NCBI GenBank assembly: GCA_030145345.1
Contig: JAQYVT010000015.1
Location: forward strand, 1-44,186
From: Desulfobacterales bacterium
Lineage (GTDB): Bacteria > Desulfobacterota > Desulfobacteria > Desulfobacterales > UBA11574
Reading direction: 5' to 3'
DNA length: 44,186 nucleotides
Part shown: positions 10,778-43,848 of the stretch, piece after piece
Layout: each line of letters begins with the position of its first letter
How positions within the stretch are numbered: the first letter of the stretch is position 1
Notes under the pieces: generated by a model
What the model saw: only the letters and a program-made list of their open reading frames with translations
What the model was told of the DNA's origin: nothing
Databases searched by the model: none
Made by a program: the position numbers and the translations under genes

Positions 10778-12238
10778 TTACATTATGCCCTCTTGCAGCC
10801 CGGGGATCTCCTTGCGGATCTCGGTGCGTATTTCAGAAGAAAGAATAGGTATTTCAGGCTTTGCCAGAATTTCTCCGACTATTTCTGTCGCTCGAGCCCG
10901 GGCTGATTTGGCACCGTCTCTTTCCCAGTCTTGCCGGTTATTCCTGTCACTGAGCTGAGGCTGATACAGTTCGGTGCGCATAAATTTGCGCGTATGGCGG
11001 TTGGAAACAAAATGGCCGCCCGGCCCCGCTTTCTTCAAAACATCGAAAGCCAGGGTTTCATCGTTTACCTGGATTCCTTCCACAGCCCGCATAACCATCC
11101 CTATGATTTCATTGTCTATTACCAGTTTGTCGTATGAGGCGGTCATGCAAAACTCAATAAAACCGGCGGCGTCATGAATAAAGTTGCCGCCGGCCAGCGC
11201 CACCATTAAACCGGTCAATGCCGATTCATAGCCGGCCTGGGTATCATTGGTTTTGGCATCAGACATGCCGGCTGTGGAATACAAGGGAAGGTTGTAAAAG
11301 CGGGCCATCTGGGCTGCAGCGGCATTCAGCAGGCCCATTTCCACGGCGCCTGATAAGTACTTCATGTCACGCATATCGGTAATCGAAGCGACACTCCCGT
11401 ATAATACCGGAGTGCCCGGGTTAACCAATTGGGTGAGCATCACACCGATTAGCGTATCCACGTTCAGCACGACCAGATTGCCGGCCAAGGTAATGGGGGC
11501 CGTCGCACCGCAAAGCGGCTCTGCCGGTACGACCACAGGTATACCGTGCTTTGCAACCTCCATGGCAAGCTGGCCATAGCTTTGATCAAGTTTAAAAGGA
11601 CTGATGTTGCATGCTACCATGGATATAAAGGGGCGCTTCTTTAGTTTTTCCGAAGAACCGGCGATGATTTCCGCCATTCTGATTACACTTCTGACCCCTT
11701 CGACCGTATAAACCCCGCCCATTATATGCTTGCGGGTATTGTTGAGAGCGGCGCCGAAGCGGTTAACATCTACATTCTCAACCGGCAGTTCGTTGGGGAA
11801 TACGTTGAGCATGTAAAAATGAATGTTGTCCAGGGCATCCACCAGGCGGGCCATGTTGACAATGTCTTCGAGTTTTGATCGCCGCGCATCGGTGCTGCCC
11901 GGATCTTGGACATTCAGGGCGGTTCCGCCGGTTCCCATATAAACATTGCTGCCGCCGATTTCACAGTCTAACTCACCATTATCAGCCCTTCCATAAAGGC
12001 GGACAACCGAAGGGGCCGATTCGATCAGTTTTGTAACCAGATCCGGATCGAACCTGGCAATTTTGGCGGCATCGTCGACATTGGCACCGGCTTGTTTAAA
12101 CAGTTCTAAGGCTTCCGGAAAATTCACCTGTATGCCGACTTCGGAAAAGATCCGCAGACTGGTTTTGTGTATTTTTATAATATCTTCATCGGCCAGAGGC
12201 TTGTACTGCCCCCCCGGCAAGCCTTTCCTCGTGATCAT
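10778..12238 (-). CDS. MttB-superfamily methyltransferase, likely betaine type
   Basis: This 486-residue protein opens with ITRKGLPGGQYKPLADEDI and then shows VYMGTGGTALNVQDP, NTRKHIMGGVYTVEGVRS, VPAEPLCGATAPITLAGN, VLYGSVASITDMRDMKY, YNLPLYSTAGMSDAKTND and FIEFCMTASYDKLVIDNEI. It is the copy most like non-pyrrolysine glycine betaine methyltransferases (MtgB group), judged from memory of the family and not from a search. The reaction would be betaine plus Co(I) corrinoid to dimethylglycine plus methylcorrinoid. No in-frame TAG. ATG follows AAGGAGGTGTAG, a very strong ribosome binding site. It is the second gene of the operon, after the reactivation-domain protein, and close to the osmolyte transporter, which supports a quaternary ammonium substrate. 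Confidence 0.9.
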   Translation of the reverse strand: MITRKGLPGGQYKPLADEDIIKIHKTSLRIFSEVGIQVNFPEALELFKQAGANVDDAAKIARFDPDLVTKLIESAPSVVRLYGRADNGELDCEIGGSNVYMGTGGTALNVQDPGSTDARRSKLEDIVNMARLVDALDNIHFYMLNVFPNELPVENVDVNRFGAALNNTRKHIMGGVYTVEGVRSVIRMAEIIAGSSEKLKKRPFISMVACNISPFKLDQSYGQLAMEVAKHGIPVVVPAEPLCGATAPITLAGNLVVLNVDTLIGVMLTQLVNPGTPVLYGSVASITDMRDMKYLSGAVEMGLLNAAAAQMARFYNLPLYSTAGMSDAKTNDTQAGYESALTGLMVALAGGNFIHDAAGFIEFCMTASYDKLVIDNEIIGMVMRAVEGIQVNDETLAFDVLKKAGPGGHFVSNRHTRKFMRTELYQPQLSDRNNRQDWERDGAKSARARATEIVGEILAKPEIPILSSEIRTEIRKEIPGLQEGIM

Positions 12239-16303: not shown

Positions 16304-16398
16304 AATAGATGAATTTACTTTTTTTTAGGTAAGAAAAGGATATTTCAAATGATATGAGAAGAACTAAACAATATATTGGGGTTTAGGGGGCTGGTGGC

Positions 16399-17622
16399 TC
16401 ATAAGATCAGACAATCGGCCACCAGCTCCCACAGGTATTTCACCTCAAGATCTTCAAAATCGTATTCTGATTTCACATTATTAAACTGACCGTGGCAACT
16501 GTGGCAGGGAACCACAATCATCTTTGCCCCTGTGGCCCTGATCTGGTCGATCTTTTTTCTGGCATAAAAAACACGCTCATCGTTATACCCGGTTGTAAGG
16601 GTTCCGCCGCCCCCGCCGCAGCAGATTTGGTCCATTCTGTTGGGGTAGAGATCCACCCACATCTCCATACACTGATCCATAATCCATCGCGGCTCCTCAA
16701 AAAAACCGTGACCAAAACACTTTTCGGCCTTTCTGCCGTAATTGCACGGATCATGATAGGCGGCGAGTTCTGTATACTTTGTTCTGTCCAGTTTAATGCG
16801 ACCTTCTTTAATATATTTTATCAGCAGGTCAAAAACCGTGATAAATCCGAACTGATTCAATGCTTCAGGGTAATATTTTTCAAGACCCGACCGGGTCGCA
16901 AGGTAGGCATGGCCTCATTCCGGCCAGAGAAGGTTTTTGACTTGAAGCTTTTCCATCTGCTGCACAATCCGGCCGGCCATGACCTTCATGGCCTCTTCAT
17001 CGCCCGTAAAGTATCCCCATGAGGTTCCTTCCCAGTTTTCAGACGTTACGGTCCAGTCTTCCTGGGCCGCATGAAAAATTTTCCACCAGTGTTTTAAATC
17101 TTCGGTGTGCGTATTGACCAGTTTGTTATGGATGGTGGTTAAAAGATTCGCTCCTTTTTTGTCCACAGGTGCTTTGAATCCTTCAAATCCCGGTTCTTCT
17201 GCCACCTCTTCGGCGACATCCTCGATGATAAAAATAAAGTCTTCCTTGGGCAGGCGAAGATTGTTGCCGGTCTCCAATGCGGCCGCAAGACCTTTATGAA
17301 GAATCCCCGGGACCTTTTCGCGATCTCTTAGGGATCGGATTTTTCTGACCAAATCGGCGATGTCGATCTCCATGGGGCAAACATTTTCGCATTTGCCGCA
17401 CATGGTGCATATCCACGGCCACCGAGCGTCTATCAGTTCCTCAACCAGTCCCAGTGAAACCATCCGGACCAGCATACGGGGATCAAATCCGTCTATTCCG
17501 GAAGCGGGGCAGGAACTGGCACACAGCGCGCACGTAACACAATAATCCTGCAAAAACGGCCAGGATCGGCATCTCCCGTGATCGAGTTGATCCATATCGG
17601 TGATTTCAAATGGTGATGTCAT
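16399..17622 (-). CDS. HdrC-HdrB-like Fe-S oxidoreductase with in-frame UGA (probable selenoprotein)
   Basis: Conventional translation gives two pieces (17622-16915 and 16860-16399), but the frame is shared and open across a single UGA at 16915-16917. Read as Sec the product has 407 residues with U236 in PE-U-GHAYLATRSGLEK. The N-terminus is HdrC-like, with two [4Fe-4S] motifs (C28xxCxxCxxxCP and a second CxxCxxCxxxCP around 72-84). The C-terminus is HdrB/HdrD-like, with C293, CC at 334-335 and CxxC at 373-376, one CCG motif. U236 occupies the last Cys position of the preceding degenerate CCG unit. The paralogue at 32682-34001 has UGA at exactly the same place with similarity continuing after it. 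A hairpin lies 22 nt downstream. It is likely a cytoplasmic electron-transfer subunit working with the HdrA and MvhD-like proteins upstream. Confidence 0.85.
16884..16897 (-). promoter_or_regulatory. Candidate bacterial SECIS hairpin for the UGA at 16915
   Basis: On the minus strand GACCC-GGTC-GGGTC forms a perfect 5-bp stem whose apical loop begins 22 nt after the UGA. The loop GGUC is the same as that of the well-known E. coli fdhF element. Bacterial SECIS elements need a stem-loop 16-37 nt downstream with a G at the start of the loop, and this fits. Confidence 0.65.
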
Positions 17623-17708
17623 ATGACGACCTCATTTAACGTTATACCCTCATCCGGACCTGTTTCCTCTATTCCCTTTGATGGTTTGGACGACGCCGGA
17701 TTTTCCGG

Positions 17709-19328
17709 CTATTGATTCTTCTTAAGCCGACTGGGGCCGAGTTCTATGATATTGGCTTCAAAGCGGCTTACCATCTCTGCAAATTCCGTTCCCATATTGG
17801 AGGCAAGGGTTTGTACGGCAAGTCGTTCTTTTTCAAATCCGATTTGCAAAAACATATCGGTTATCTGCGCTACGGTTTGCTTTGCAAAAGTATTGCCCTG
17901 TTCTGAATGACAGTTCCCCTCATGGCATGTCAAGACCATAACACCGTCCGCATTCCTTTTAAAGGCCGCAAAGATATGATTGAAAGAAATACTGCCCGAG
18001 CAGGGCACTTCGATCACTTTAAGTCCCGGTGGTAGTTTATGACCCATGCACAGCGACAGTTCACCGGCCTGGACCGCCGAGCGGCTGCAGCAGAAGGCCA
18101 CCAAAAAGGGGGTAAAGGCAGCGTCTTCTCGGGGGGTATCCCCTGTGGTCATCTGTTTTGAAATTGACGCCGGCTCAAGGTCTTTTATATGAATAGCACC
18201 CCTCGGACATTGGGCGGCACATATGCCGCATCTTTCGCAGGCATGGGGTTCAACGACCACTCGTGTATTTAGCGTTATCGCCCGGTAGGGACAGCGGCGA
18301 TAGCAGGTCAGGCACCGTATGCACTGACCTTTGTCGATTTCCGCCCTGTTTTCCGGTACAGCCGCCAGGCCGGCCATAAGTAAAGCTGATGCAAGTGCAG
18401 CATTTCCGGCATCGACGATCTGGTCGTCACGCGCCTGGATAATCCTTGATGGGCCGGCGGTCATGATCCCTTTTCTGTTGGTAAATACAGTAAACCGATG
18501 AACATTATCCGCCTGTATGAATCCGTCAGGATCTGTATCGACCCCAAGTATTCTTGAAAGATCGGCAGCATAGTTAGACGGGACAACCGTTTCATCAACA
18601 ACGGTAATATCCGGTGTTAATCTGAATTTTTTGGAGGTTATTTCGTCGATAAATTCAATTTGAATGCTGCCGTCGCTTTCAGAATGAATTTCAGGGCGGG
18701 TGTCCGTGAACTTGATATAGACGACGCCTGCTTTTTTTGTTTCTCTGTGCAGGGCTTCCAAACCGTTTCCGGCCACCTTGAGATTGTTTGTCAGAATATA
18801 TGTCTTAAGGTTAAAATCTGATTGGAGCCTGAGGGCGGATTGCATAATTTCTTCTGCAATGACGGGATTGCTTTCTTGAAAAATCCCATTTAGGAAAGCC
18901 ACTTTTTTTACTTCTGGAAAAATGCCTGGGTCACGAGATGCATCGAGCAGCAATTCCGTCATCCGGAAGAGAGGGATGACATTGGAAGATGCTTTCAACC
19001 CGTATTGTGAAAAATTGGATTTCCGCTGATCTTCTTCAGCAATGATAACGCCGGCAACCCTTCGCGCAATCTCTTGGTTGTTCTGAGCTGCCAAAATCCT
19101 GAAATTTCCGGCCGAGCCACGGCATGAAACCAGTCTTGTGTCTGTCAGGATTTCGACTGATCCGGAATCGACCGATAAAGAGAAATGGAGCGTTTTATCC
19201 GGAGTTGCAATCACAAGATCTTTGCCCGCGGCCAGAAGATTTTCAGCAATACAATGGGCGCACGGTCCGTTTCCGAAAATTAATGTCTTATTGTTCAAAG
19301 GCGCCACCTTTTTAATGATGGTTTTCAA
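17709..19328 (-). CDS. QmoB/HdrA-related protein fused to ferredoxin and MvhD domains
   Basis: This 539-residue protein starts at a TTG (19326-19328), six bases after the HdrA gene stop; the start is uncertain and a GTG seven codons on is an alternative. Residues 1-320 look like a divergent flavoprotein-type domain (TLIFGNGPCAHCIAENLLAAG; FTVFTNRKGIMTAG). Then two [4Fe-4S] motifs follow, CIRCLTCYRRCPYRAI and CERCGICAAQCPRGAI. The last 140 residues are an MvhD/FlpD-like [2Fe-2S] module (FCCSRSAVQAGE, EVPCSGSISFNHI, CHEGNCHSEQG). The order matches QmoB, which links Hdr-like complexes to electron donors. It probably passes electrons between HdrA (19335-20579) and the HdrC-B fusion (16399-17622) in the cytoplasm. 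Confidence 0.85.
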   Translation of the reverse strand: MKTIIKKVAPLNNKTLIFGNGPCAHCIAENLLAAGKDLVIATPDKTLHFSLSVDSGSVEILTDTRLVSCRGSAGNFRILAAQNNQEIARRVAGVIIAEEDQRKSNFSQYGLKASSNVIPLFRMTELLLDASRDPGIFPEVKKVAFLNGIFQESNPVIAEEIMQSALRLQSDFNLKTYILTNNLKVAGNGLEALHRETKKAGVVYIKFTDTRPEIHSESDGSIQIEFIDEITSKKFRLTPDITVVDETVVPSNYAADLSRILGVDTDPDGFIQADNVHRFTVFTNRKGIMTAGPSRIIQARDDQIVDAGNAALASALLMAGLAAVPENRAEIDKGQCIRCLTCYRRCPYRAITLNTRVVVEPHACERCGICAAQCPRGAIHIKDLEPASISKQMTTGDTPREDAAFTPFLVAFCCSRSAVQAGELSLCMGHKLPPGLKVIEVPCSGSISFNHIFAAFKRNADGVMVLTCHEGNCHSEQGNTFAKQTVAQITDMFLQIGFEKERLAVQTLASNMGTEFAEMVSRFEANIIELGPSRLKKNQ

Positions 19329-19334
19329 ACCACT

Positions 19335-20579
19335 TCAGAAGCCATTCGGTTTGAGGTATTTCGCAATATCCCATGCCGCACGACCGGCACCGGCCATGGT
19401 TTCAGGGATGTTCATCGGCCCTTCGACGGTGCCGGCTGTAAAAACCCCGTTTTCAAAATCCGATGCTTCTTCGGTACCGGCTGACACAAATCCGGAATCA
19501 GCCAGTTTGAGATCGAGCATTCCCGCTAGTTCTCGGCTGTCTTTACACGGGGTAATTCCGATGGAAAGCACCAGCAGGTCGAAAATTTCCTCTAAGGTTT
19601 CGTGGGTACTGTTGTCTAAAAAGTTTATCTTCAGCTTTTGACTGTCCGTCTCGTAAATGTCGCCGGGAATCGCGCGTATCATCCGCACCGCTTCCTGAAC
19701 GTCTTTATAGAATTGTTCGAAGTCCTTTCCAAAAGTCTGGACATCGATATAGAAAAAAGAGATGTCAATGTCAGGCTGCCTTTCTTTGATCAGTCTTGCC
19801 ATGCGCAGCGCCGAACCGCAGCATACCTTCGAGCACCATAGATGATTCAGCTTGGAATCTCTGGAGCCGACACACTGGATAAAGGCGATTCGCTCGGGAG
19901 GTTTATTATCGCTCGGCGTTTTTACGCGTGCCGTCTGTTTTAGCATTCTTTCCAGGTCGAGCGTTGAAAGGACATTTTTAAAAAGACCATACCCGTATGG
20001 CTTGTCCACGGGACTAAACGGCTGGAATCCGGTGGCAACCAGGACGGCGTCTGCTTGGCTCACATATTTAGAATCTTTTTCATCCAGATTGATGGCCTTT
20101 TCCGGACATTCATCCCGGCAGATATGGCAAGATGTATCTTTGAGATAGAGACATTTTTCTGGGTTGATCCCATAAAAGGGGATATTGTTTTTTGAAAATC
20201 CGTTTAAAATCGCGCCGTCCGAAGGGCATCTGTCTGAACAAATAGCGCATTGATTGCACTTCTGGGAATCTATATACTGGGGTTTTTGGTGAATGTTTAC
20301 GGTGAATCGACCGTTTTTGGATATTTTTTGTACCTGACTGCCGATCAAAATCTTTATGTTTGGATGCGAAACCGCGTTTTTCAGTTTTTCTTCCACCATG
20401 CATGCGCCGCACTTTACGCAGGTATTCCGGGTTGCTTTACAGGCATACCCGATGGCATGCCCTCCCAGAAAGTCCGATTTTTCAACCAGTTCAACATGGA
20501 TACCTAAATTGGCGAGTTCAACCGATGCACAAAGACCGGCTACTCCGCCACCGATAATCAGAACATTTTTATCCGTCAT
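19335..20579 (-). CDS. HdrA/QmoA-like flavoprotein
   Basis: This 414-residue FAD protein opens with the dinucleotide-binding motif VLIIGGGVAGLCASVELA and the following FLGGHAIGYACKATRNTCVKCGAC. It then has two ferredoxin-like motifs (CNQCAICSDRCPSDGAI; CHICRDECPEKAI), an IAFIQCVGSRDSKLNHLWCSKVCCGSALR block typical of HdrA, and a C-terminal FAD segment (VFTAGTVEGPMNIPETMAGAG). Length matches the short QmoA type rather than full methanogen HdrA (about 650). It may bifurcate or simply relay electrons within the soluble complex with the two downstream proteins. ATG follows AAAGGGAGAGTC. Upstream is a 367-base region, so transcription probably begins there. Confidence 0.9.
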   Translation of the reverse strand: MTDKNVLIIGGGVAGLCASVELANLGIHVELVEKSDFLGGHAIGYACKATRNTCVKCGACMVEEKLKNAVSHPNIKILIGSQVQKISKNGRFTVNIHQKPQYIDSQKCNQCAICSDRCPSDGAILNGFSKNNIPFYGINPEKCLYLKDTSCHICRDECPEKAINLDEKDSKYVSQADAVLVATGFQPFSPVDKPYGYGLFKNVLSTLDLERMLKQTARVKTPSDNKPPERIAFIQCVGSRDSKLNHLWCSKVCCGSALRMARLIKERQPDIDISFFYIDVQTFGKDFEQFYKDVQEAVRMIRAIPGDIYETDSQKLKINFLDNSTHETLEEIFDLLVLSIGITPCKDSRELAGMLDLKLADSGFVSAGTEEASDFENGVFTAGTVEGPMNIPETMAGAGRAAWDIAKYLKPNGF

Positions 20580-26078: not shown

Positions 26079-26465
26079 TTATTCGAGATTTTCCTTTACA
26101 ATGTCCATCAGTCTATCCAAATCGATGGGTTTTGGAATAAAATCTTCGGCCAATGTTGTTTTTCCGCCAAAATGGGTATATTGGGTCGTTGTTACGGCAT
26201 CTCCCACCGCGGTAAGAAGAACCACTGTGATATCTTTGTATTGATCGTCCTTTTTAATTTCATCACATACCACATACCCATCTTTTCTCGGCATCATGAC
26301 ATCCAGAATAATCAGCTCCGGCCGATCTTCTTTAATCCGTTCCCAAGCTTCAACCCCATCATACGCCTTGGTTACCCGAAAATTATTGCTTTCCAGCTTC
26401 ATGGTAATCGACTCAACCAGATCGGGGTCATCGTCTACCACTAGGACATGTTGCTTATCACTCAT
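26079..26465 (-). CDS. Single-domain response regulator
   Basis: This 128-residue protein is a receiver domain only. The acidic pocket is in HVLVVDDDPDL, the phospho-acceptor is Asp55 in LIILDVMMPRKDGY, a Thr is in VVLLTAVGDAV and the conserved Lys is in DFIPKPIDLDRL. With no output domain it would act as a phosphorelay intermediate or bind a partner, plausibly one of the two kinases to the left. It lies 63 bases downstream of metF, so it may be the last gene of the sigma-54 operon, linking pathway expression to signalling. ATG follows AAGGAGGAAAAGCA. Confidence 0.92.
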   Translation of the reverse strand: MSDKQHVLVVDDDPDLVESITMKLESNNFRVTKAYDGVEAWERIKEDRPELIILDVMMPRKDGYVVCDEIKKDDQYKDITVVLLTAVGDAVTTTQYTHFGGKTTLAEDFIPKPIDLDRLMDIVKENLE

Positions 26466-26528: not shown

Positions 26529-27458
26529 CTAAAGATCAATTGTGGGCCTTGGAAGAAGTCCGGCTCTTTCGACAATCTCCGGAACCTTCTGTTCCCACTC
26601 TATGGCCATAACGTGGAATCCTTTTACGCCTTCCACCGCCTTTAGGCGCTCGATGGCTTCCACACTGATCTTAATCCCTTCCTCGGGCTGCTTTTCTTTG
26701 GGAACACCGGCCATACGTTTGATTATTTCATCCGGCACATCCATTCCAGGCACCCTGTTTTTCATGTATTTAGCCATTCCTACAGTTTTCATGGGCGTAA
26801 TTCCGGGCATAATATTGACCTTTTCATGGAGACCTCGGTCACGGACACCTTCCATCCATTTCTCAAACTTGTCCAGGTTGTAAATACATTGTGTTTGAAT
26901 AAAATCAGTCCCTGCATTGATCTTTTTGGCCAGGCGAGCCACCCGCAGTTCAAAAGGGTCGGCAAACGGGTTGGCTGCCGCACCGATAAACATTTTGGGT
27001 GGATTCAGAATATCGTCTCCGCCCTGGAATTTGCCCTTATCCCGCATGTCTTTGATCATCTGAACGAACTGAACGGAATCGATGTCATGCACATTGGCCG
27101 CCATGGGGTGATCGCCAAAGTGGGGATGATCACCGGATAAACAAAGCATGGTATCGATGCCGTGTGAATAGGCGCCCAGAATGTCGGCCTGCATGGCCAG
27201 CCGGTTACGGTCTCTGGTCACCATCTGAAGGATGGGACTCATTCCCAACTGTTTAATAAACACACAGGCGGCAAAACTGGACATTCGGACCATGGCTGTC
27301 TGGTTGTCCGTAACGTTGACCGCATCCACATATCCTTTAAGCATTTTGGCTTTTTCGATGATCTTTTCCGGCACGGCACCCCGTGGAGGTCCACATTCGG
27401 AGGTCACCGCCAACTCACCTGAAGCAAAAACTTTTTCCAGTACACTTTCGGTCTTCAT
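26529..27458 (-). CDS. metF: Methylenetetrahydrofolate reductase catalytic subunit MetF
   Basis: This 309-residue TIM-barrel flavoprotein has MetF family features: ELAVTSECGPPRG near the start (the Glu that activates methylene-THF), VNVTDNQTAMVRMS, the VTRDRNRLAMQADILGA segment, LCLSGDHPHFGDHPMA and IMPGITPMKT. It interconverts methylene-THF and methyl-THF. In this locus the oxidative direction is expected, with methyl-THF coming from the MtrH-like proteins. It overlaps metV by four bases (ATGA), which indicates translational coupling and a MetVF complex like that of acetogens. A shorter paralogue is at 31729-32601. It feeds electrons to or takes them from the HdrA/MvhD proteins encoded upstream. 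Confidence 0.95.
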   Translation of the reverse strand: MKTESVLEKVFASGELAVTSECGPPRGAVPEKIIEKAKMLKGYVDAVNVTDNQTAMVRMSSFAACVFIKQLGMSPILQMVTRDRNRLAMQADILGAYSHGIDTMLCLSGDHPHFGDHPMAANVHDIDSVQFVQMIKDMRDKGKFQGGDDILNPPKMFIGAAANPFADPFELRVARLAKKINAGTDFIQTQCIYNLDKFEKWMEGVRDRGLHEKVNIMPGITPMKTVGMAKYMKNRVPGMDVPDEIIKRMAGVPKEKQPEEGIKISVEAIERLKAVEGVKGFHVMAIEWEQKVPEIVERAGLLPRPTIDL

Positions 27459-28123
27459 TTTACCAAATCCTCTCTTATTATTTTACGGGGTCCGCCACCG
27501 CGACCTGTTCGCCAGTCTTTTGCCGCTATATTTTCTTCGTATCTATCTTCTAACCCCAAGGCTTTCAGCCGGTCCCAGATGAGCTGCCAGGCGCATTCAA
27601 TATCCGGATCCACCTCACACTTGCCGTTTGTGGATCCACCGCAAGGGCCGTTCAACAGACGCTTTGAACACCGTGCAATCGGGCAAATTCCTCCGGTCAA
27701 TCCCAAAACGCAGTCTCCGCATCCCTGGCATCTTTCAACCCACACCCCCGGACGTTCCGAAGCACCCATGAATTCTGTATTCACAGCCGGAAAAACCGGT
27801 TTGGTTTTAAACCGCCTGGCAATTTCCTGGACTCCGCATCCGCAAGCCATGGACATAACCGCTTCCACTTGATCAATTTGAATGACAAGTTCTTCTACAT
27901 ATTCAGGATCGCATTGCCTTTCGAGGGTCATTTCTTTAACCTCGAGGGTCTTTCCTTCCTTCATAAATGCCATTTGGAGGGCGGAAGATAAAATTCCAAC
28001 CTCCTTTCTCCCCCCTGCCGAGCACACCGTTACACACTCGTTACATCCGACGAGCAGAATGCGATTGTACGGTCTCAGGCATTCAATGAGTTCTTCCATT
28101 GGTTTACGTTCAGCAGTGATCAT
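27455..28123 (-). CDS. metV: MetV, Fe-S/Zn subunit of methylene-THF reductase
   Basis: This 222-residue Cys-rich protein matches MetV (the MthfR C-terminal domain family). It contains ILLVGCNECVTVCSAGG near residue 25, VMSMACGCGVQEIA near 92, VERCQGCGDCVLGLTGGICPIARCSKRLLNGPCGG at about 130-165 and NGKCEVDPDIECAW. The Cys groups bind Zn and a [4Fe-4S] cluster in the Moorella-type complex. It anchors MetF and carries electrons from flavin to the Hdr subunits. ATG lies about eleven bases after AAAAGGAG. It sits between mvhD (33 bases upstream) and metF (overlapping). Confidence 0.93.
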   Translation of the reverse strand: MITAERKPMEELIECLRPYNRILLVGCNECVTVCSAGGRKEVGILSSALQMAFMKEGKTLEVKEMTLERQCDPEYVEELVIQIDQVEAVMSMACGCGVQEIARRFKTKPVFPAVNTEFMGASERPGVWVERCQGCGDCVLGLTGGICPIARCSKRLLNGPCGGSTNGKCEVDPDIECAWQLIWDRLKALGLEDRYEENIAAKDWRTGRGGGPRKIIREDLVK

Positions 28124-28156: not shown

Positions 28157-28597
28157 TTACAGGTTGTTAGATGCCATATCCATGGAGAAGGATTTTGCCG
28201 GGTTGGGTCCCAGTTTGCGAATTTTTTCCGTCATATCGGCAGCCGTTTGTGCAAAACGTTCCCCCATGCCGGCCGACATTGATATCATTTCAACGCGTTC
28301 TCCGTCGATGCCGATTTCATCCAGTAACTTTTTGATATAAGCCACCCGCTTTGACGCTTCGATGTTGCCGTTTTTAAAATGGCAGTCTCCCTCCAAACAA
28401 CCTGCGACATAGACACCGTCAGCCCCCTTTTCAAGGGCTTTCATAATGTGGATCGCATCGACTTTGCCCGAGCACGGCACTCTTACAATCTTGACATTTG
28501 GGGGATAGCAAAGTCGTTTACTCCCTGCCATATCCGCTGCCGTATATGCACAATAATGACAGCAAAAAGCCACGATAACCGGTTCAAAATTTTCCAT
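28157..28597 (-). CDS. mvhD: MvhD/FlpD-like [2Fe-2S] electron-transfer subunit
   Basis: This 146-residue protein is of the MvhD family: VIVAFCCHYCAYTAADMAG at the N-terminus, IVRVPCSGKVDAIHIMKALEKGADGVYVAGC in the middle and EGDCHFKNGN near residue 74. The paired Cys residues bind a [2Fe-2S] cluster that brings electrons to HdrA in bifurcating complexes. No hydrogenase MvhAG genes are near, so the partner here is most likely MetFV, as in the MetVF-HdrCBA-MvhD complex of Moorella. Its start overlaps the hdrA stop (TAATG), so translation is coupled. Confidence 0.94.
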   Translation of the reverse strand: MENFEPVIVAFCCHYCAYTAADMAGSKRLCYPPNVKIVRVPCSGKVDAIHIMKALEKGADGVYVAGCLEGDCHFKNGNIEASKRVAYIKKLLDEIGIDGERVEMISMSAGMGERFAQTAADMTEKIRKLGPNPAKSFSMDMASNNL

Positions 28598-31500
28598 TAG
28601 TTCACCCTTTCCAAAAGTCCGGTCAGTTTGGCCATGATCTGATCGTCTTCATATTGCATAAGCTGAATGGCCTTTGCCGGACATTCAGCAGCACATATGC
28701 CGCATCCATGGCACTGGGCCGGATCGATTTGAGAATATCCGTCCGCATTAATAAATGGTATGTTAAAAGGACAGGCCCGAACACAGATCAAGCAGGCCGC
28801 ACACTTCTCTTTTTCCACACGTGCCACCACAGCGCCAAGATTAAGTGTATCTTTTGCCAACAAAGCTTGAGCCCTGCCCGCCGCAGCCTGAGCTTGAGCA
28901 ATGCACTCTCGGATGGTCTTGGGTGCATGGGCCGTGCCGGCCACAAAAAATCCCGGGACCGACAAGTCTACGGGTCTGAGTTTGATATGATCCTCGAGAA
29001 AATAGTTGTCGTTGGTTTTTGGAATGTGAAATATTCTTCCCAGATCTTCCGTCGATTCTTCATCGGCAATGAACCCTGTACTTAGGCAAAGACAGTCCGC
29101 ATAAACCGATACTTTTCGTTTTAATATCGGATCATTAAATTTGACTTCCAGCTGCGCGTCATCGGCCTGAACCTCGGGGAGGGCATCTGCTTCATATCGG
29201 ACAAAAATAACGCCTTTTTCACGGGCTGTTTTATAATAATCTTCCTGGAATCCATAGGTTCGCATATCCCGATAAAGGATGAAGACCCGGGCCGCTGGAT
29301 TGAGTTCCAGCACTCTGAGAGCATTTTTTATGGCCGATTGACAGCAAATGCGCGAACAATTCGGGTTTTCCGGACATCGGGACCCCACGCACTGGATCAT
29401 AACAACGTTGGTAACATCCTTGATTTTATCCGGTTGATCTTCTATCACGGCATCCATATCGAGTTGGGTCATAACCTTTTCATGTTCCCCCAGAAGATAT
29501 TCTTTGGGTTGGTTCGGTAGCGCCCCGGTGGCCAAAATGGTTACGCCGTGCGTGATCTGCCGGTAAAACATTTGTGGTGCGATCTGTATTCCTGTTTTGA
29601 ACATGCCCGGCATCCCTGTATGATCGACAATGAAGGCATTGGTGATGACCTCGATCCGATCATGTTGGGTGGTTCTTTCAATCAGGTCCGTCATATAGGC
29701 CTGCACATCATCCCCTTCAAGCGTCTTTCGAATCTTTTTTGCAACACCGCCCAATTCGCTGGACCGTTCTGCCAGATATACCTTAAACCCCATATCCGCC
29801 ATGCTTAAAGCAGTGTTCATTCCGGCCACTCCGCCGCCAACCACTAGAACATCTTTGTTCATTGGGAAAATATTGTCCGTAAGCGGGCGGGACAGGGCCA
29901 CACTGGTCACCGCCATACGAATCAGCTCTTGGGCCTTAATGGATGCACCATCGGGTTGATCAAAGTGAACCCATGTGTTCTGATCCCGCAAATTGGCGAT
30001 TTCTACTAGGTATTTATTGAGGCCTGCCCTGCGAAGGGTGTCCTGAAATTTGGTTTCGTGAGTTCTGGGCGAACACCCCCCGATGACCACCCGGTTCAGG
30101 TTTTCTTTGGCAATAACGGTTTGAATGCGTGCCAAAGCATCTCGGCTGCAACCATGGCCGATCATTTCAGATACCTTCACATCTGGAAGTGTTCCTGAAT
30201 AATCCGCCAGTCCCTGTGCATTAATTACCCCCCCGATGTTTAACCCGCAGTCACATACAAAAACACCGATTTTAAGGGGTTCCCGGCTGACATCACGCTC
30301 CGGCGGAAATTCTTCTACGGCTTCAGAAGATTCAGAAACCATACGAATATTTTTTGAAGCACAAAATGCCGCGGCACTGGCCTGGACCATGGTTTCGGGG
30401 ATATCCTTTGGACTTTCGAACATCCCACAGGCATAAATGCCGGGCTTGGAAGTGGCCACCGGGTTGAAGCTATCTGTTTTTGCAAAATGGTGTTCGTTCA
30501 ACTCGATCCCCAGTTTCACTGCCAGATCCTGCACGTCCCGGGAAACCTTGAAGCCGGTGGACAGTACCACCATATCAAAATCTTCGGTGACATTGGTATT
30601 GCTGTCATGGGGAGTATAGATAATGGACAGAGACCCTGTTTCCGGATCATGGAAAACACTATGGGGACGACTTCTCACCAGGCGAATACCGTAATCGTCT
30701 TTGGCCCGATTTAAATACAATTCATAGTCTTTACCGAATGTTCTCATGTCCATAAAAAAGATGGCGGTTTCGATGGAATCTTGAAAGCGCTCCTTGGTTA
30801 CGATGGCTTCTTTCAAAGCGAACATACAACAGGCACTGGAACAATAGGAAGCAGCGCCTTCGTGGAGGCTGCGTGACCCCACACATTGAATCCAGGCTAT
30901 TTTTTGGGGTTGTTTTCCGTCTGAAGGCCGGATGAGCTCTCCCTGGGTAGGGCCGGATGCGGATAATATGCGTTCATACTCCAGGCTGGTCACCACATCA
31001 GGGTTTGCTGCATGACCCAAACTATCCAATTTGCCAGGGTCAAACACCTCGGCTCCCGGCGCCAGGACAATGGCACCGGCTTCTAGGTCTCGAACCTTTT
31101 GGGTATCTTCCGGGATGATAGCATCCGCCTTGCAAACCTTGACCAGTGCATCAATATCTTTGCATTTTTCTATATCAATGGAAAAGGCATGGGGGATTGC
31201 CTGGGGATACCGCATACAGGTCGGCGCCCGGTGATCAAGACCCGGGGTAAAACGAACACATTCCGGAAAATTTTTAAAACAATCACCGCATGCCGTACAC
31301 GTATCCAGGTCGATATATCGGGGTTCCGTAATTAATTTTAATTTAAAATCACCTGCCTCCCCTTGGACTTCGGCAACCTGCGTCATTGCCAGAAGCTCGA
31401 TATGCAACTGGCGGCTGCTTTCGGATAGATTGGGAGACAGGGTGCACAAATCGCAATTGTTGGTGGGAAACGTACGGTCGAGTTGGGTCATCAGCCCGCC

Positions 31501-31635
31501 GATGGAAGATGCTTTATCGATCAACACCACATCCCGATTCGATTCAGCCAGATCCATGGCAGCCCGAATACCACCAACCCCCCCGCCAATTACAAGTACC
31601 GTATGGTTTTGTTTAAACGTATTTTGATCTTGCAT
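28597..31635 (-). CDS. hdrA: HdrA-like flavoprotein, double-length (tandem HdrA)
   Basis: At 1012 residues this is about twice a QmoA-type HdrA. Two FAD/NAD(P)-binding modules are visible: VLVIGGGVGGIRAAMDLA near residue 13 and VLVVGGGVAGMNTALSMA near 605. Each is followed later by an HdrA-specific IQCVGSR Cys block. The middle (KIGVFVCDCGLNIGGVI, VVIGGCSPRTHETKF) matches the N-terminal domain of canonical HdrA. Two [4Fe-4S] motifs close the protein (CAACLICVRACPF; CHGCGICAAECPAKAI), and another Cys group is near 110-125. It is the candidate flavin-bifurcating subunit joining MvhD, the HdrC-B fusion and MetFV. All Cys positions checked are Cys, with no UGA. The ATG has a weak Shine-Dalgarno (GGGACCACATGCA before it). 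Confidence 0.94.
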   Translation of the reverse strand: MQDQNTFKQNHTVLVIGGGVGGIRAAMDLAESNRDVVLIDKASSIGGLMTQLDRTFPTNNCDLCTLSPNLSESSRQLHIELLAMTQVAEVQGEAGDFKLKLITEPRYIDLDTCTACGDCFKNFPECVRFTPGLDHRAPTCMRYPQAIPHAFSIDIEKCKDIDALVKVCKADAIIPEDTQKVRDLEAGAIVLAPGAEVFDPGKLDSLGHAANPDVVTSLEYERILSASGPTQGELIRPSDGKQPQKIAWIQCVGSRSLHEGAASYCSSACCMFALKEAIVTKERFQDSIETAIFFMDMRTFGKDYELYLNRAKDDYGIRLVRSRPHSVFHDPETGSLSIIYTPHDSNTNVTEDFDMVVLSTGFKVSRDVQDLAVKLGIELNEHHFAKTDSFNPVATSKPGIYACGMFESPKDIPETMVQASAAAFCASKNIRMVSESSEAVEEFPPERDVSREPLKIGVFVCDCGLNIGGVINAQGLADYSGTLPDVKVSEMIGHGCSRDALARIQTVIAKENLNRVVIGGCSPRTHETKFQDTLRRAGLNKYLVEIANLRDQNTWVHFDQPDGASIKAQELIRMAVTSVALSRPLTDNIFPMNKDVLVVGGGVAGMNTALSMADMGFKVYLAERSSELGGVAKKIRKTLEGDDVQAYMTDLIERTTQHDRIEVITNAFIVDHTGMPGMFKTGIQIAPQMFYRQITHGVTILATGALPNQPKEYLLGEHEKVMTQLDMDAVIEDQPDKIKDVTNVVMIQCVGSRCPENPNCSRICCQSAIKNALRVLELNPAARVFILYRDMRTYGFQEDYYKTAREKGVIFVRYEADALPEVQADDAQLEVKFNDPILKRKVSVYADCLCLSTGFIADEESTEDLGRIFHIPKTNDNYFLEDHIKLRPVDLSVPGFFVAGTAHAPKTIRECIAQAQAAAGRAQALLAKDTLNLGAVVARVEKEKCAACLICVRACPFNIPFINADGYSQIDPAQCHGCGICAAECPAKAIQLMQYEDDQIMAKLTGLLERVN

Positions 31636-31728: not shown

Positions 31729-32601
31729 TCAAATTCCTGCATAATCCAGAATCTTAGGAAGCCGGTATTCCCAGCCGAGGGTAATGATATGCACGCCCTG
31801 GGCAACTTCTTTTAGGCCTGCAACGGTTTCTCCGGCAATCCGTAGACACTCCATTTCCGTATCCGACGCTTTCCGAATACGTTTGATCAAGTCTTCCGAA
31901 ATATGGGCCCCCGGTTCGTAAGTTGAGATATATCTGGCGATTCCCACGGATTTTATGAGAAAAACCGTGGGAATAATCGGCACGCCTAACTTTTTAAACG
32001 CATCCAGAGCCGCAGAAAAGCGATTTAAATCATAGACAGGCGGCGTAATTATAAATTGAACGCCGGCCTCGATCTTTTTTCTCGCAAGCGATAATTCCTT
32101 TTCAAATGCCGCATTGTCAGCGGACGGAGCCATGGTACATCCCACGGTAAAAGAGGGACTCCCACTCAAATCGAAACCCGCCATGTCCACACCGTTCTGC
32201 AAGGATTGAATGGCGCCCAAAAGGTCCAGTTCATCCAGGTCATCTACCAATTTTGCGTCTCGATGATCGCCCTTGGCCATTTCTTCACTGTGGACAACAA
32301 CGAGATTCTGAATGCCCAGTACATGGGCTGCCAGGATATCGCCTTGAAGCGCCATCCGGTTACGGTCCCGGCAATAGACATGAATGATGGATTCAACGCC
32401 CTGCTGGTGCATGAGAACACCACCGGCCAGTGCACTCATTCGCATGATGCCATTGTCCATATCAGGAACAATGACGGCATCCACACGCCCTTTGATACGT
32501 CGTGCATTGGTAACAAGCTCAGATATATCCACGCCTTTGGGTGTATTCATCTCAGCCAGCACAACAAATTCACCTGATGTTAATCGTTTCTGAAAACTCA
32601 T
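31729..32601 (-). CDS. MetF-family methylenetetrahydrofolate reductase paralogue
   Basis: This 290-residue MetF-like TIM barrel has EFVVLAEMNTPKGVDIS, VIVPDMDNGIMRMS, IIHVYCRDRNRMALQGDILAA, FTVGCTMAPSADN and FIITPPVYDLNRF. The Glu of the AEMNTPKG segment aligns with the catalytic Glu of MetF. It is clearly different from the MetF at 26529-27458 and has no own MetV-like gene beside it. It lies between the HdrC-B fusion and HdrA. It might be a second isoform in the same complex, or act on another one-carbon pterin substrate. ATG follows AAGGAAGCTT. Confidence 0.88.
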   Translation of the reverse strand: MSFQKRLTSGEFVVLAEMNTPKGVDISELVTNARRIKGRVDAVIVPDMDNGIMRMSALAGGVLMHQQGVESIIHVYCRDRNRMALQGDILAAHVLGIQNLVVVHSEEMAKGDHRDAKLVDDLDELDLLGAIQSLQNGVDMAGFDLSGSPSFTVGCTMAPSADNAAFEKELSLARKKIEAGVQFIITPPVYDLNRFSAALDAFKKLGVPIIPTVFLIKSVGIARYISTYEPGAHISEDLIKRIRKASDTEMECLRIAGETVAGLKEVAQGVHIITLGWEYRLPKILDYAGI

Positions 32602-32681: not shown

Positions 32682-34001
32682 CTACATCGCCGATTCCGGG
32701 TGAAAGACCAGAACGTCTTTGAGGTCATCTCCCAGGTATTCTCTTTCGTTTGGGCCGAGAATTCCCAGGGAAAGGCATATCAACGTCCACAAATGAACGG
32801 TCTGCCATGCATGCTCGCGCTGATCCGACAAATCATGAATTTGGGCATGGCAGTTGTGACAGGGCGCAATGCAATAATCGGCTTTTGTGGCCAGAATCTG
32901 GTCGGCTTTAAGCTGGCCGTACGCACGACGTGCATCGGTATATCCAGATTGAAGAAAACCGCCACCACCGCCGCAACAGTAGTTATTCGAACGGTTGGGA
33001 ATCATATCGATGAAATTCTCTTCACCCACGACCGATTTGACGATAAACCTCAAATCTTCCGCGATTGGATCGCCATAACTTTTTCGCACGATCTGGCATG
33101 GATCCTGAACCGTAAACTTGATCTTCAAATTTTTGTTCCAGTCTGAATTGACCTTCAGTCTTCCTTCCCGGATCCATTTGGCATAATATTCATAGATGTT
33201 CTTAACCTCAAAACTATGGTCAATGTTGAATTTTTTCAGTCCAGCCCGGACTGAGAACGTCACGTGACCTCACTCGGTATTGAGAAAGATTTTACAACCC
33301 AGGTCATCCGCCTGTTTGGCCGTGGTTCGGGTAATGTGTTCCCAGGCTTGGTCATCCGCCAGAAACATACAATAGTTTTCTGCCGCCCAGCCTTTATTGC
33401 CATAGGTCCAGTCTACACCCGCCCGGTGAAGAATCTTCCATAGCGGAACCAATTCGTCCGGTTCGGTCACCGGTTCTCTTGAATTCTGGTTCAAAAAGAA
33501 TTCGGCGCCCTGTTTGTCGATGGGCGCAGCCATATCCTTGAATTCCGGCTGAGCCTCCTGATATTCCTCGAGAACGTCTTCAACTACGAACTGGAAGTCC
33601 TCCTCGGACGTTCCCATGGCACTGCAACTGTCATTTCTCAAAGCCATGTCACAGGAGCCCAGGATACCCTTGGGACGCTCCTCCCTGGGCCAGGCTGCCC
33701 TGGCATTATAGACCAGCTGGGGAATGTCAATTTGCATGGGACAGACATAAATACACCGCTGACACAGAGTACACATCCATACCCAGGGAGTACTTAAAAT
33801 TTCTTTGTCCATGCCCAGGGCCGCCATCCTTAGAAACTTTCGAGGATCCATATCTTCCAGGCCGGTGGCCGGACATCCTGAAGAACAGGCACCACAGGTC
33901 AAACAGAGATTGAGATTTCCGCCTTCTGGAAGAAGTTCTTTTACCGTGTCTAAAAAGCCGCTTTTCTTTTTACCTTTGATGATAATGGGTTCTCCTGGCA
34001 T
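32682..34001 (-). CDS. HdrC-HdrB-like Fe-S oxidoreductase with in-frame UGA (probable selenoprotein)
   Basis: This is one frame across a UGA at 33270-33272; conventional calling splits it into 243- and 193-residue pieces. With Sec it has 439 residues and U244 in TE-U-GHVTFSVRAGLKK. The N-terminal HdrC-like part has CLTCGACSSGCPATG (about 33-45) and CTLCQRCIYVCPMQID (about 78-90). The C-terminal HdrB/D part has C302 in VQDPC, CC 342-343 and CHNC 381-384. It aligns with the protein at 16399-17622 on both sides of the UGA (E-U-GH, RxGLxK, IxEGRxK), which would not be expected of two unrelated genes. It is positioned as the HdrBC component of the MetFV-HdrA-MvhD set. A hairpin 22 nt after the UGA fits a SECIS. 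The natural end acceptor of the HdrBC site is unknown. Confidence 0.87.
33236..33254 (-). promoter_or_regulatory. Candidate bacterial SECIS hairpin for the UGA at 33270
   Basis: On the minus strand TCAGTCC-GGGCT-GGACTGA is a perfect 7-bp stem with a 5-base loop starting with G. The loop begins 22 nt after the UGA, the same spacing as in the paralogue at 16884-16897, although stem and loop sequences differ between the two. Conserved position with diverged sequence favours a selected structure. Confidence 0.65.
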
Positions 34002-34010
34002 GGTTTCATC

Positions 34011-34256
34011 CTATTTTTTCTTTTTTAATTGAATTCGATAAAAATAATCCCCTTCCTCAACAACATCTAAAAAAATCAACTCATACGCATCGTCCGGCAA
34101 AACTTTGAATAAATCGCTGCGAGTATCTAAATTGCTCCCAAGTATTTCTAAAACTTCACTCGGTTTCATTTCTCTAAATGTCTGAATCAATTTCAACAGA
34201 GAAATGGAAGTGATCGATCCTCTGCAATCGAGGATATGATCCGCTTTACGCTTCAA
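34011..34256 (-). CDS. TusA-like protein lacking the catalytic CPxP Cys
   Basis: The chosen start is TTG at 34254-34256, nine bases after a perfect AAGGAG. Upstream ATGs in frame lie inside or before the sigma-54 promoter and cannot be in the transcript. The 81-residue product has the TusA/SirA fold pattern: ILDCRG strand, a helix SLLKLIQTFREMKPSEVLEIL, then DLFKVLPDDAYELIFLDVVEEGDYFYRIQL. Where TusA has CPxP the sequence is TSIS. The only Cys is in LDCRG, four residues earlier, so classical sulfur relay is unlikely. Such proteins often accompany Hdr and sulfur-handling genes. It is the first gene of the HdrCB-MetF operon, ten bases before it. Confidence 0.75.
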   Translation of the reverse strand: MKRKADHILDCRGSITSISLLKLIQTFREMKPSEVLEILGSNLDTRSDLFKVLPDDAYELIFLDVVEEGDYFYRIQLKKKK

Positions 34257-34301
34257 ACTTTGAATACTCCTTGATTGTTTTCCGGTTTTGTTCATGTTAA
34301 C

Positions 34302-34316
34302 GCAAAATGGGTGCCA
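34302..34316 (-). promoter_or_regulatory. Sigma-54 (-24/-12) promoter
   Basis: Minus strand TGGCAC-CCATT-TTGC matches the RpoN consensus TGGCACN5TTGC at every defined position, with the required 10 bases between GG and GC. Transcription would begin near 34290, 34 bases before the TTG start of the TusA-like gene. It would drive the whole HdrCB-MetF-HdrA-MvhD-MetVF operon. Confidence 0.8.
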
Positions 34317-34424
34317 CATTAAAATGGGTTGATTTTCTGATGGCTGTTTTCTTCAATATCCCTTTATCTTCGCCGGTTTCAGGAAAAAGGCATAATAATG
34401 TCTCTTGTCATCAACCTGTTTAAA

Positions 34425-42381: not shown

Positions 42382-42492
42382 GCAATTTTGTAGGTTCAGA
42401 TGCATATTCATTCGCTCAATTAGGGAAAAAGAGAAAAGGGATGGCTTGAAGTCCTTCAGGGGTACATTTCAGCATTGATAAGGAGGTTGATT

Positions 42493-43848
42493 ATGGAAAA
42501 GGGTGAAAAATTAGTGGTTATCGGCTGTGGAGGGGTGGGCGGACCTGCTGCCATGCTGTCGAAGAAGCTGATGCCGGATGTCGAAGTTACGGTTATCCGG
42601 GATGAAAAAAGGTTTATTGTCAGATGAGCCCTCCCCCATGTCGTGGCCGGTCTGGTCACTGGAGAGTCTATCGTTAATCCGGACCAAAAGCTTCAAGGAG
42701 CCGGTATTAAGGTTATCACCGGCAAGGCAGTAAGCATTGATGTCAACACCAAGAAAGTTTACTTGGATGACGGCACTGAAATTCCTTATGACAAATTGAT
42801 TATGGGGACCGGGGCCAGCCCGATTATACCCCCCATGGAAGGCCATGATCTTAAAGGCGTCTTGACCCTGCGCTCCCTGAGCGATGCTGAAACCATAAAG
42901 CATTTCTTAGAAGACAAAAAGCTCAAGAAGCTGGCCTTTATCGGCGCGGGCTTTATCACCCTGGAAGTCGCCGCTCTTCTCAAAGCCGCTAAACCGGATT
43001 ATTATGATATTCATGTGATCGAACTGTTGAGCCACCCGCTGCCCATGATGATGGACAAAGATTTGGCGGTTTTGTTGCAGGAATATCTGGTGGAAAAGGG
43101 CATGGAAATGAATATGGGCGCAAAAGTAGAAAAAATATTAGGCCAAGATGGCACGGTGACGGGGGTAGAGCTTTCTACAGGAGAAATAATTGCCGCGGAC
43201 ATGGTATTTCTTAACGTCGGCGCCAGGGCGAATACTGAACTCGCAAAAGATATCGGATTAGAGATCGGCAGGTTCGGCATTCGGGTCAATAAATTCTTAG
43301 AGACCTCGAATCCGGACATTCTCGCGGCTGGGGACTGTGTTGAGAAGGAAGATTTCATCACCAAAAAACCGGTTCCCGGCCAACTGCGCGGCCCCGCAGT
43401 GATCCAAGGACGTCTGGCGGCCAAAAGGCTTGCCGGCTACAAGATCGAATTTCCGGGAGTATTGAATGCCTGGGCATGCAAACTTTTTGATAAAGTCCTG
43501 TCGGGCACGGGCTTGACCGAGGAGCAGGCCCTTCAAGCAGACATTGAGACCGTTAGCGCCGTAGTTGACTCCAGGAGTAAGCACGGGATGATCCCAGGCG
43601 TCAAACCCTGGACCATCAAACTGATCTTTGACAAAGACTCCAGAAAGTTGATCGGCGGGCAAATTATCAGTGATGCTGTCTCACCGGCAAAAGAAATAGA
43701 CGCTGTCAGCGCGCTGATTCTCGGCGGTAAAACCATTGAAGATCTCACCACATTCATGACCGCCGGAAATCCGGACAGTTCTTCGGAGCCGAGCATGGAA
43801 CCGATTACGATTGCTGCCGAGCAGGCCTTGCAGAAATTGAGAACGTAA
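42493..43848 (+). CDS. CoA-disulfide/NADH-oxidase-type flavin reductase with UGA at the catalytic Cys (probable selenoprotein)
   Basis: ATG 42493 follows a perfect AAGGAGGTTGATT. The frame is interrupted only by UGA at 42625-42627; with Sec the protein has 451 residues and U45 in RFIVR-U-ALPHVV. FAD motif LVVIGCGGVGGPAA at 8-20, NAD motif FIGAGFITLEVAALL near 156, second FAD motif LAAGDCVE near 279 and a dimerisation domain at the end are all in place. In the single-Cys class (CoA-disulfide reductase, NADH oxidase/peroxidase, NADH-dependent persulfide reductase) the redox Cys is at residue 42-43, exactly where U45 falls. A call starting at 42643 would lose the flavin site. There is no rhodanese domain. 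The substrate may be a thiol disulfide, persulfide or peroxide. Confidence 0.87.
42643..42659 (+). promoter_or_regulatory. Candidate bacterial SECIS hairpin for the UGA at 42625
   Basis: GTGGCC-GGTCT-GGTCAC is a 6-bp stem (one G-U pair) with loop GGUCU, the same loop as in E. coli fdhF. The loop starts 21 nt after the UGA, almost the spacing of the other two candidates in this window. Confidence 0.7.

Follow-up and report, generated by a model that had tools for sequence, protein, structure and literature searches.

Fused HdrC-HdrB proteins with selenocysteine (Sec) belong to an already known selenoprotein family, reported as GlpC and HdrD4. Five Sec GlpC proteins ("Fe-S oxidoreductase GlpC," Deltaproteobacteria) were counted by Zhang et al. 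in 2006, and an operon of glpC-hdrA-frhD-frhG-frhA was described (PMC1794560); the accounts available place Sec GlpC in sulfate-reducing and syntrophic species. HdrD4 of Desulfobacterium autotrophicum HRM2, a soluble HdrC-HdrB fusion, was listed as a selenoprotein in 2009 (PMC2702500), and in 2021 a study of dual code expansion (PMC8318568) included "Fe-S oxidoreductase" and "heterodisulfide reductase" among its selenoproteins. Hdr genes also stand beside Met genes: a MetFV-HdrABC-MvhD complex of Moorella thermoacetica was purified and described (PMC5861303), Seep-SRB1g has a metF-HdrABC group (PMC10553843), and in Chloroflexi an hdrABC-mvhD-metVF cluster with fused HdrB and HdrC has been reported (PMC5736913). 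The available text of these three papers makes no mention of Sec in a Met-linked HdrCB.

Here, we report an HdrC-HdrB fusion gene (HdrCB) in a 44,186-nucleotide stretch of DNA, hereafter the window, from a Desulfobacterales bacterium (UBA11574; GenBank assembly GCA_030145345.1, contig JAQYVT010000015.1, positions 1 to 44,186, forward strand). The product is probably a Sec244 selenoprotein that relays electrons in a MetFV-Hdr complex, with Sec beside a noncubane cluster. An operon of HdrCB(Sec) with MetF, MetV, HdrA, and MvhD appears undescribed; in the literature listings and text passages searched, no paper describes a selenocysteine-containing subunit for an Hdr complex linked to Met genes. 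Bacteria that use the Wood-Ljungdahl pathway have to connect a folate reaction with carriers of different potential, and they do so at the methyl-tetrahydrofolate (methyl-THF) step. Because operons of cultured species encode a subunit whose Sec is widely conserved and probably adjoins an unusual Fe-S cluster, this connection and the part played by selenium can both be put to the test.

The HdrCB gene and its operon

The features discussed are as follows (all on the minus strand).
34011..34319, minus: TusA/SirA-like small protein (28.5 bits, just below the Pfam cut-off of 28.6)
32682..34001, minus: HdrC-HdrB (HdrD-type) fusion with predicted Sec244 (Pfam Fer4_8 at residues 30-91, CCG at 297-388; AlphaFold model)
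33270..33272 (read 33272-33270), minus: UGA codon predicted to be read as selenocysteine (E-U-G-H)
33236..33254 (read 33254-33236), minus: putative SECIS hairpin, 7 bp, loop GGGCU, TCAGUCC-GGGCU-GGACUGA
31729..32601, minus: MetF-like (MTHFR), 290 amino acids, first of two, TGA stop (PF02219, 82.7 bits)
28597..31635, minus: HdrA, 1012 amino acids, without UGA (HdrA2 model, 827 bits, below the cut-off of 1100)
28157..28597, minus: MvhD/FlpD, without UGA (PF02662, 177 bits)
27455..28123, minus: MetV (MTHFR C-terminal family), TGA stop (PF12225, 128 bits)
26529..27458, minus: MetF, 309 amino acids, second of two (PF02219, 141.7 bits)
26079..26465, minus: response-regulator-like, last gene of the type I order (named from sequence)
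16399..17622, minus: HdrCB2 paralogue, UGA at 16917-16915 (residue 236), beside a second, split HdrA (17709-20579)

With TGA taken as Sec, HdrCB forms one 439-amino-acid frame on the minus strand (34001 to 32682), whose single in-frame UGA is residue 244, in the motif E-U-G-H. The HdrC-like part holds two [4Fe-4S] motifs (C33, C36, C39, and C43; C77, C80, C83, and C87), and the HdrB-like part holds the CCG motifs (C302, C342, C343, C381, and C384). This combination of a Fer4_8-type HdrC dicluster ferredoxin part, a fused CCG domain, and a UGA is that of the GlpC/HdrD family, and fold and motifs support a fused HdrC-HdrB electron-transfer subunit. Under the standard code, the gene is split into open reading frames 33270-34001 and 32682-33263 (GTG start), and the HdrB half is lost. 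Membership in TmcB, HmcF, or DsrK was rejected, since the scores (162 of 735, 161 of 750, and 116 of 400 bits, respectively) were all below the NCBIfam cut-offs.

The minus-strand order of the operon is TusA-like, HdrCB(U), MetF-like, HdrA, MvhD, MetV, MetF, and response-regulator-like. Genes for MetF, MetV, HdrA, HdrB, HdrC, and MvhD all stand together, with HdrB and HdrC fused, and a Pfam scan of the operon genes found no FrhA or FrhG hydrogenase gene. The earlier note on this DNA had proposed that an HdrC-HdrB fusion with a UGA-encoded Sec is part of a MetFV-Hdr operon, and the sequence bears this out.

By its published description, Sec GlpC is likewise a COG0247-type Fe-S protein with Sec beside HdrA and FrhD (the same as MvhD; PMC1794560, PMC13188914). 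Unlike the GlpC hydrogenase operon so described, that of the window combines HdrCB with MetF and MetV and lacks FrhA and FrhG. In D. autotrophicum HRM2 (G186), HdrCB occurs as two UGA copies and as a Cys copy; the two UGA orthologues (77% and 64% identical) have the same UGA site and the same hairpin, and HdrD4 could be either of them. In contrast to the window gene, neither has a Met or HdrA match in the 19.5 kb covered. The two UGA genes (L198 and L199) compare with one Sec HdrD (HdrD4) in the available text of PMC2702500, so one of them may be unannotated.

With the M. thermoacetica complex, the window shares genes for MetF, MetV, HdrA, HdrB plus HdrC, and MvhD (PMC5861303), and Seep-SRB1g metF-HdrABC likewise groups MetF, HdrA, and HdrB plus HdrC (PMC10553843). 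Unlike in either, as described there, HdrB and HdrC of the window are fused and carry a predicted Sec, and the type I order (below) has two MetF genes.

Gene orders in relatives

HdrCB(Sec) and Met genes were found together in three gene orders. Type I, the window order (HdrCB-MetF-HdrA-MvhD-MetV-MetF-response regulator), is present in three cultured species: Desulfoprunum benzoelyticum (L100), where the TusA-like gene is found as well, Desulfosediminicola flagellatus (L131), and Desulforhopalus singaporensis (L132); the last two gave no TusA-like match. Type II is HdrA-MvhD-HdrA-MvhD-HdrCB-MetV-MetF, and type III is MetV-MetF-HdrA2N-HdrA2C-HdrCB.

Neighbors were counted as present anywhere in the stretch around a locus, many contigs being short, at 79 named loci drawn from the best 80 of 522 relatives. 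On the same strand, 32 loci had Met and HdrA genes, 13 had HdrA only, and 34 had neither (33, 14, and 32, respectively, on either strand); the 43 loci with at least 4 kb on each side gave 19, 7, and 17 (either strand). The link between Met genes and HdrCB is common, not universal. An exclusively Met-linked HdrCB is ruled out by the stand-alone copies (34/79, same strand), and because orthologues often lack Met or HdrA neighbors, the Met complex is not the sole role. The idea of a distinct methylene-THF reductase variant, raised in the earlier note, stands as regards the Met-operon setting and needs narrowing otherwise: the family was already known to contain Sec, and with a Met link at only 32 of the 79 loci (same strand), HdrCB is not exclusively a methylene-THF reductase subunit. 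No common redox partner was found by Pfam searches of ten neighboring open reading frames at eight stand-alone loci. Two stand-alone loci (L134 and L145) both have an HrpA-type helicase gene (DUF3418) on the opposite strand.

Some type II loci have extra UGAs, at the position of window Cys64 in HdrA and of Cys16 or Cys67 in MvhD; the type II locus of Desulfonema magnum (L081) has no UGA outside HdrCB. At five loci (L076, L080, L088, L095, and L141), successive genes (HdrA, MvhD, HdrA, MvhD, and HdrCB) contain five UGAs, all aligned with Cys in the window proteins; Met genes are on the contig at four of them, and L141 ends ahead of any Met gene. In predicted folds of L080 and L088, 9 of the 10 UGAs are followed by a stem of at least 6 pairs with a loop of 3 to 4 nt, the exception being one HdrA of L088, whose predicted fold pairs elsewhere. 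These hairpins prove little alone, because a hairpin as good as that of the window gene follows 170 of 3133 codon positions in seven neighboring genes. The available text of PMC13188914 names operons with six, four, or three genes for selenoproteins, and a five-UGA Hdr operon is not among them.

One genome (G007) has a type I-like Met operon (L155) in which an HdrCB2-type Sec protein at the opposite end replaces HdrCB. This protein (37%, one TGA), which follows the same Met genes, is the sole match of that genome at E 1e-60. HdrA and MvhD of L155 contain one in-frame stop each.

Fold, cluster ligands, and a proposed electron relay

The AlphaFold2 model of HdrCB (mean pLDDT, 85.1; pTM, 0.86) had EtfD (9ojn) as its best structural match (Z 23.2, 367 residues, 2.9 A; VIA-align 2). 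HdrB chains (5odc, 7bkb, and 8rvy) matched from model residue 166 on (Z 19.5-20.4), and 3kwl (Z 20.0), a functionally uncharacterized Helicobacter protein, and the LutA chain of 9a6l (Z 18.4) ranked among them. Searched by sequence, the PDB gave chains of HdrC, a single chain of RnfC, and a weak match to an HdrB chain. In the model, a strand precedes residue 244 and a helix starts at 245; likewise, a strand precedes 381 and a helix starts at 382.

EtfD of Mycobacterium smegmatis is membrane bound and has a linear [3Fe-4S] cluster, with C503, C538, C581, and C584 given as its ligands, and a noncubane cluster with C637, C672, C673, C709, C712, and His583 (PMC13083937). HdrB, for which Cys81 and Cys234 are named in the same paper, has two catalytic noncubane clusters. 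Ligand spacings in EtfD and HdrCB are alike (581-637 [56] versus 244-302 [58]; 637-672 [35] versus 302-342 [40]; 709-712 versus 381-384, 3 each), so that, from spacing and fold, U244 would take the place of C581 and H246 that of His583. C302, C342, C343, C381, and C384 are invariant and make up the C-terminal noncubane ligand set. In the N-terminal half, mapping by motif and spacing found only C211 and U244 of the expected first-cluster ligands, unlike catalytic HdrB with ligand sets for two noncubane clusters; with most first-cluster ligands missing, Sec would stand beside the second cluster.

In the mechanism we propose, and as the sequence strongly supports, UGA 244 would be decoded as Sec through the hairpin 15 nt downstream by the SelA, SelB, SelD, and tRNA-Sec of the genome itself. 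Judging from gene order and the Moorella complex, HdrCB would most likely join HdrA, MvhD, MetV, and MetF in a methylene-/methyl-tetrahydrofolate oxidoreductase of the MetFV-Hdr type, which, by flavin-based bifurcation or confurcation, may link the folate step with carriers of low potential. Two [4Fe-4S] clusters in the HdrC part and a single noncubane [4Fe-4S] cluster in the HdrB part, the latter with C302, C342, C343, C381, C384, and H246 as its ligands, would carry electrons between HdrA and the flavin of MetFV. The most tentative step is the last: Sec244 would adjoin the noncubane cluster, at the place of EtfD Cys581 and of HdrB Cys78 (which we take to be the HdrB counterpart of this position), and may tune or gate the transfer. 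A further reading, which we consider unlikely, is that Sec244 itself binds the noncubane [4Fe-4S] cluster at the flavin gate of MetFV as a selenolate ligand, perhaps one that can be switched.

Sec244 might instead be a catalytic selenol that reduces or makes a disulfide or trisulfide (e.g., on DsrC) at the noncubane cluster, much as HdrB acts on CoM-S-S-CoB, with the Met genes only supplying or taking electrons; we consider this unlikely. TmcB, HmcF, and DsrK, the closest curated families, serve sulfate respiration, and DsrK acts on DsrC. DsrC is also named as a partner of Flx-Hdr in the text available of PMC10553843. C117 and C211 are invariant in 114/114 Sec orthologues, which makes a Cys-Sec pair possible, but both are absent from all eight HdrCB2-like and more distant sequences aligned, so that the HdrCB2-like group has Sec and neither Cys. 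Against catalysis also stand the N-terminal half, where C211 and U244 are all that is left of the ligands expected for a first noncubane cluster, and H246, at the place of the EtfD His583 that is said to render the cluster noncatalytic (PMC13083937). The Cys of the TusA-like neighbor (in LDCRG) is kept in 0 of 11 aligned relatives, and a sulfur relay through this protein was therefore rejected as a strong lead. A relay role would fit this evidence better than catalysis.

Decoding of the UGA codon

At the 79 named loci, the best scoring of the 522 relatives, the site is UGA in 81 of 82 places and TGC in one. The first 63 loci gave 53 matches, with UGA at the site in 50, Cys in 2, and the site uncovered in 1; among 54 matches listed, 50 have TGA, and residue 244 lies outside the other 4. 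Matches at E 1e-60 or better were found in 241 of 291 genomes of the class, with TGA in every match listed among the best-scoring ones from the 291 genomes. Other stops or frameshifts mark fragments in G016:C283, G020, and G008:C168, a G177 match with an extra TAA, and further damaged copies at L121 (TAG at 229) and L144 (TAG at 433). A sequencing error, which the earlier note had called very unlikely, was rejected on the recurrence of the same UGA in independent genomes.

Cys copies surfaced chiefly when a Cys copy served as the query. With that of Desulfocicer vacuolatum (L125:4183-5427), at least 25 top matches, query included, were without a stop, and at least 5 more such copies were interspersed with UGA matches; all 15 copies inspected out of these 30 have TGC at the site. 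Two further copies without a stop are L186 and L187. Since Cys copies are not rare, Sec is not required for the fold, and the natural Cys copies are ready controls for the role of Sec. The motif E-x-G-H is otherwise invariant, x being UGA or Cys in the copies inspected, except for one Phe. The exception is a second HdrCB copy of L172 (79-1254), with TTC (Phe) at the Sec site and one stop, which adjoins a Cys copy and is probably decaying.

The dN/dS comparison proposed in the earlier note gave, before and after the UGA, 0.084 and 0.102 (window gene versus L017), 0.064 and 0.055 (versus L018), and 0.048 and 0.083 (versus L019, for which dS before the UGA, 1.6, is near saturation). Purifying selection acts on either side of the UGA (dN/dS of about 0.05-0.10 in the three comparisons).

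The hairpin lies 15 nt (stem) and 22 nt (loop) from the UGA and fits a bacterial SECIS model with a stem of 4 to 16 bp, a loop of 3 to 9 nt, and G in the first two loop positions (model as given in the available text of PMC13188914). Against the background rate given above, a single hairpin by itself is weak evidence for Sec. Among 110 distinct sequences, all 7 inner pairs are kept in 102 and 6 in the other 8. The apical, loop-closing pair is G-C in 66, U-A in 38, G-U in 3, A-U in 1, U-G in 1, and unpaired in 1; its first base sets Arg, Leu, or Gln, its second is the third position of the next codon, and parsimony on a tree of 114 proteins counted 9 changes for one of the two sides and 12 for the second. 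In 38 distinct sequences, paired cells (95.7% versus 88.3% shuffled), cells changed on both sides (19 versus 7.7 shuffled), and the covariation score were above all 500 shuffles; pairs with a change on both sides and further pair types were not above shuffles in this set, and the outermost pair is open in 12 of the 38. The Val codon of the stem is GTC in 110/110 sequences (34% elsewhere in these genes), and the Gly codon is GGA in 109/110 (23% elsewhere). This covariation check, also called for in the earlier note, indicates that stem pairing is preserved in relatives through compensatory changes. The 16 distinct non-UGA copies (21 aligned rows less four duplicated genes and one Sec copy) retain only 2 to 5 of the 7 pairs, so UGA and hairpin would have been gained or lost together.

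SelA, SelB, SelD, and tRNA-Sec are all present in the genome, each above its curated cut-off (75.4 bits in one search), and the SelD gene itself contains one TGA. Because the UGA is conserved, the hairpin is kept by compensation, and the Sec machinery is present, we consider UGA 244 of HdrCB almost certainly decoded as Sec. Matches to PYLIS_3 (mttB) above the gathering score were found at window positions 224-323 and 11167-11266 (both minus strand), and the organism probably also uses pyrrolysine.

Were the UGA a true stop, a 243-residue HdrC-like protein would be made together with a separate HdrB from a downstream start. The window gene, taken alone, allows this, since open reading frame 32682-33263 begins at a GTG, the third codon after the UGA. 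Such a start is not conserved: no in-frame ATG, GTG, or TTG occurs within 17 codons after the UGA in 101 of 114 distinct orthologues, the window gene being one of the other 13. The site, moreover, is UGA or Cys in an invariant motif, bar the one decaying Phe copy, and the hairpin is retained only alongside UGA. We regard termination at residue 244 as highly improbable; neither of the findings that the earlier note had set against Sec, a separate HdrB start in homologues and a lack of Sec machinery, was made. That suppression or an altered genetic code makes the UGA specify some other amino acid is just as improbable: the two PYLIS_3 matches hint that the genome may already expand its code, though for UAG, but TGA is a plain stop in 3 of 17 window genes checked (including MetF-like and MetV of the HdrCB operon), and the hairpin, tRNA-Sec, and SelB, together with the exchange of UGA for Cys among relatives, speak for Sec.

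Two further UGA-bearing copies were found in addition to the Sec-encoding HdrCB, namely HdrCB2 and a third at G000:C179:60845-61987. The earlier note had described HdrCB and HdrCB2 as sharing an aligned UGA site, flanking motifs, and a 7-bp hairpin at the same spacing. The site (residues 244 and 236) and the motifs (E-U-GH, RxGLxK, and IxEGRxK) are indeed common to both, as are the 22 nt from UGA to loop; the hairpin has 7 bp in the window gene but 5 bp, not 7, in HdrCB2. HdrCB2 lies beside the split HdrA, which has a C-terminal MvhD domain, and without MetF (window 16315-20579, minus strand); this order recurs in G254 (L202).

On the plus strand of the window (42475-43848), an open reading frame named from its sequence as FAD-dependent disulfide reductase like has a UGA at 42625-42627 (context RFIVR-U-ALPH) and, in the predicted fold, a 6-bp hairpin with a 5-nt loop. 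We regard its product as a candidate selenoprotein, comparable to the Sec-containing CoA-disulfide reductase/NADH oxidase family already known.
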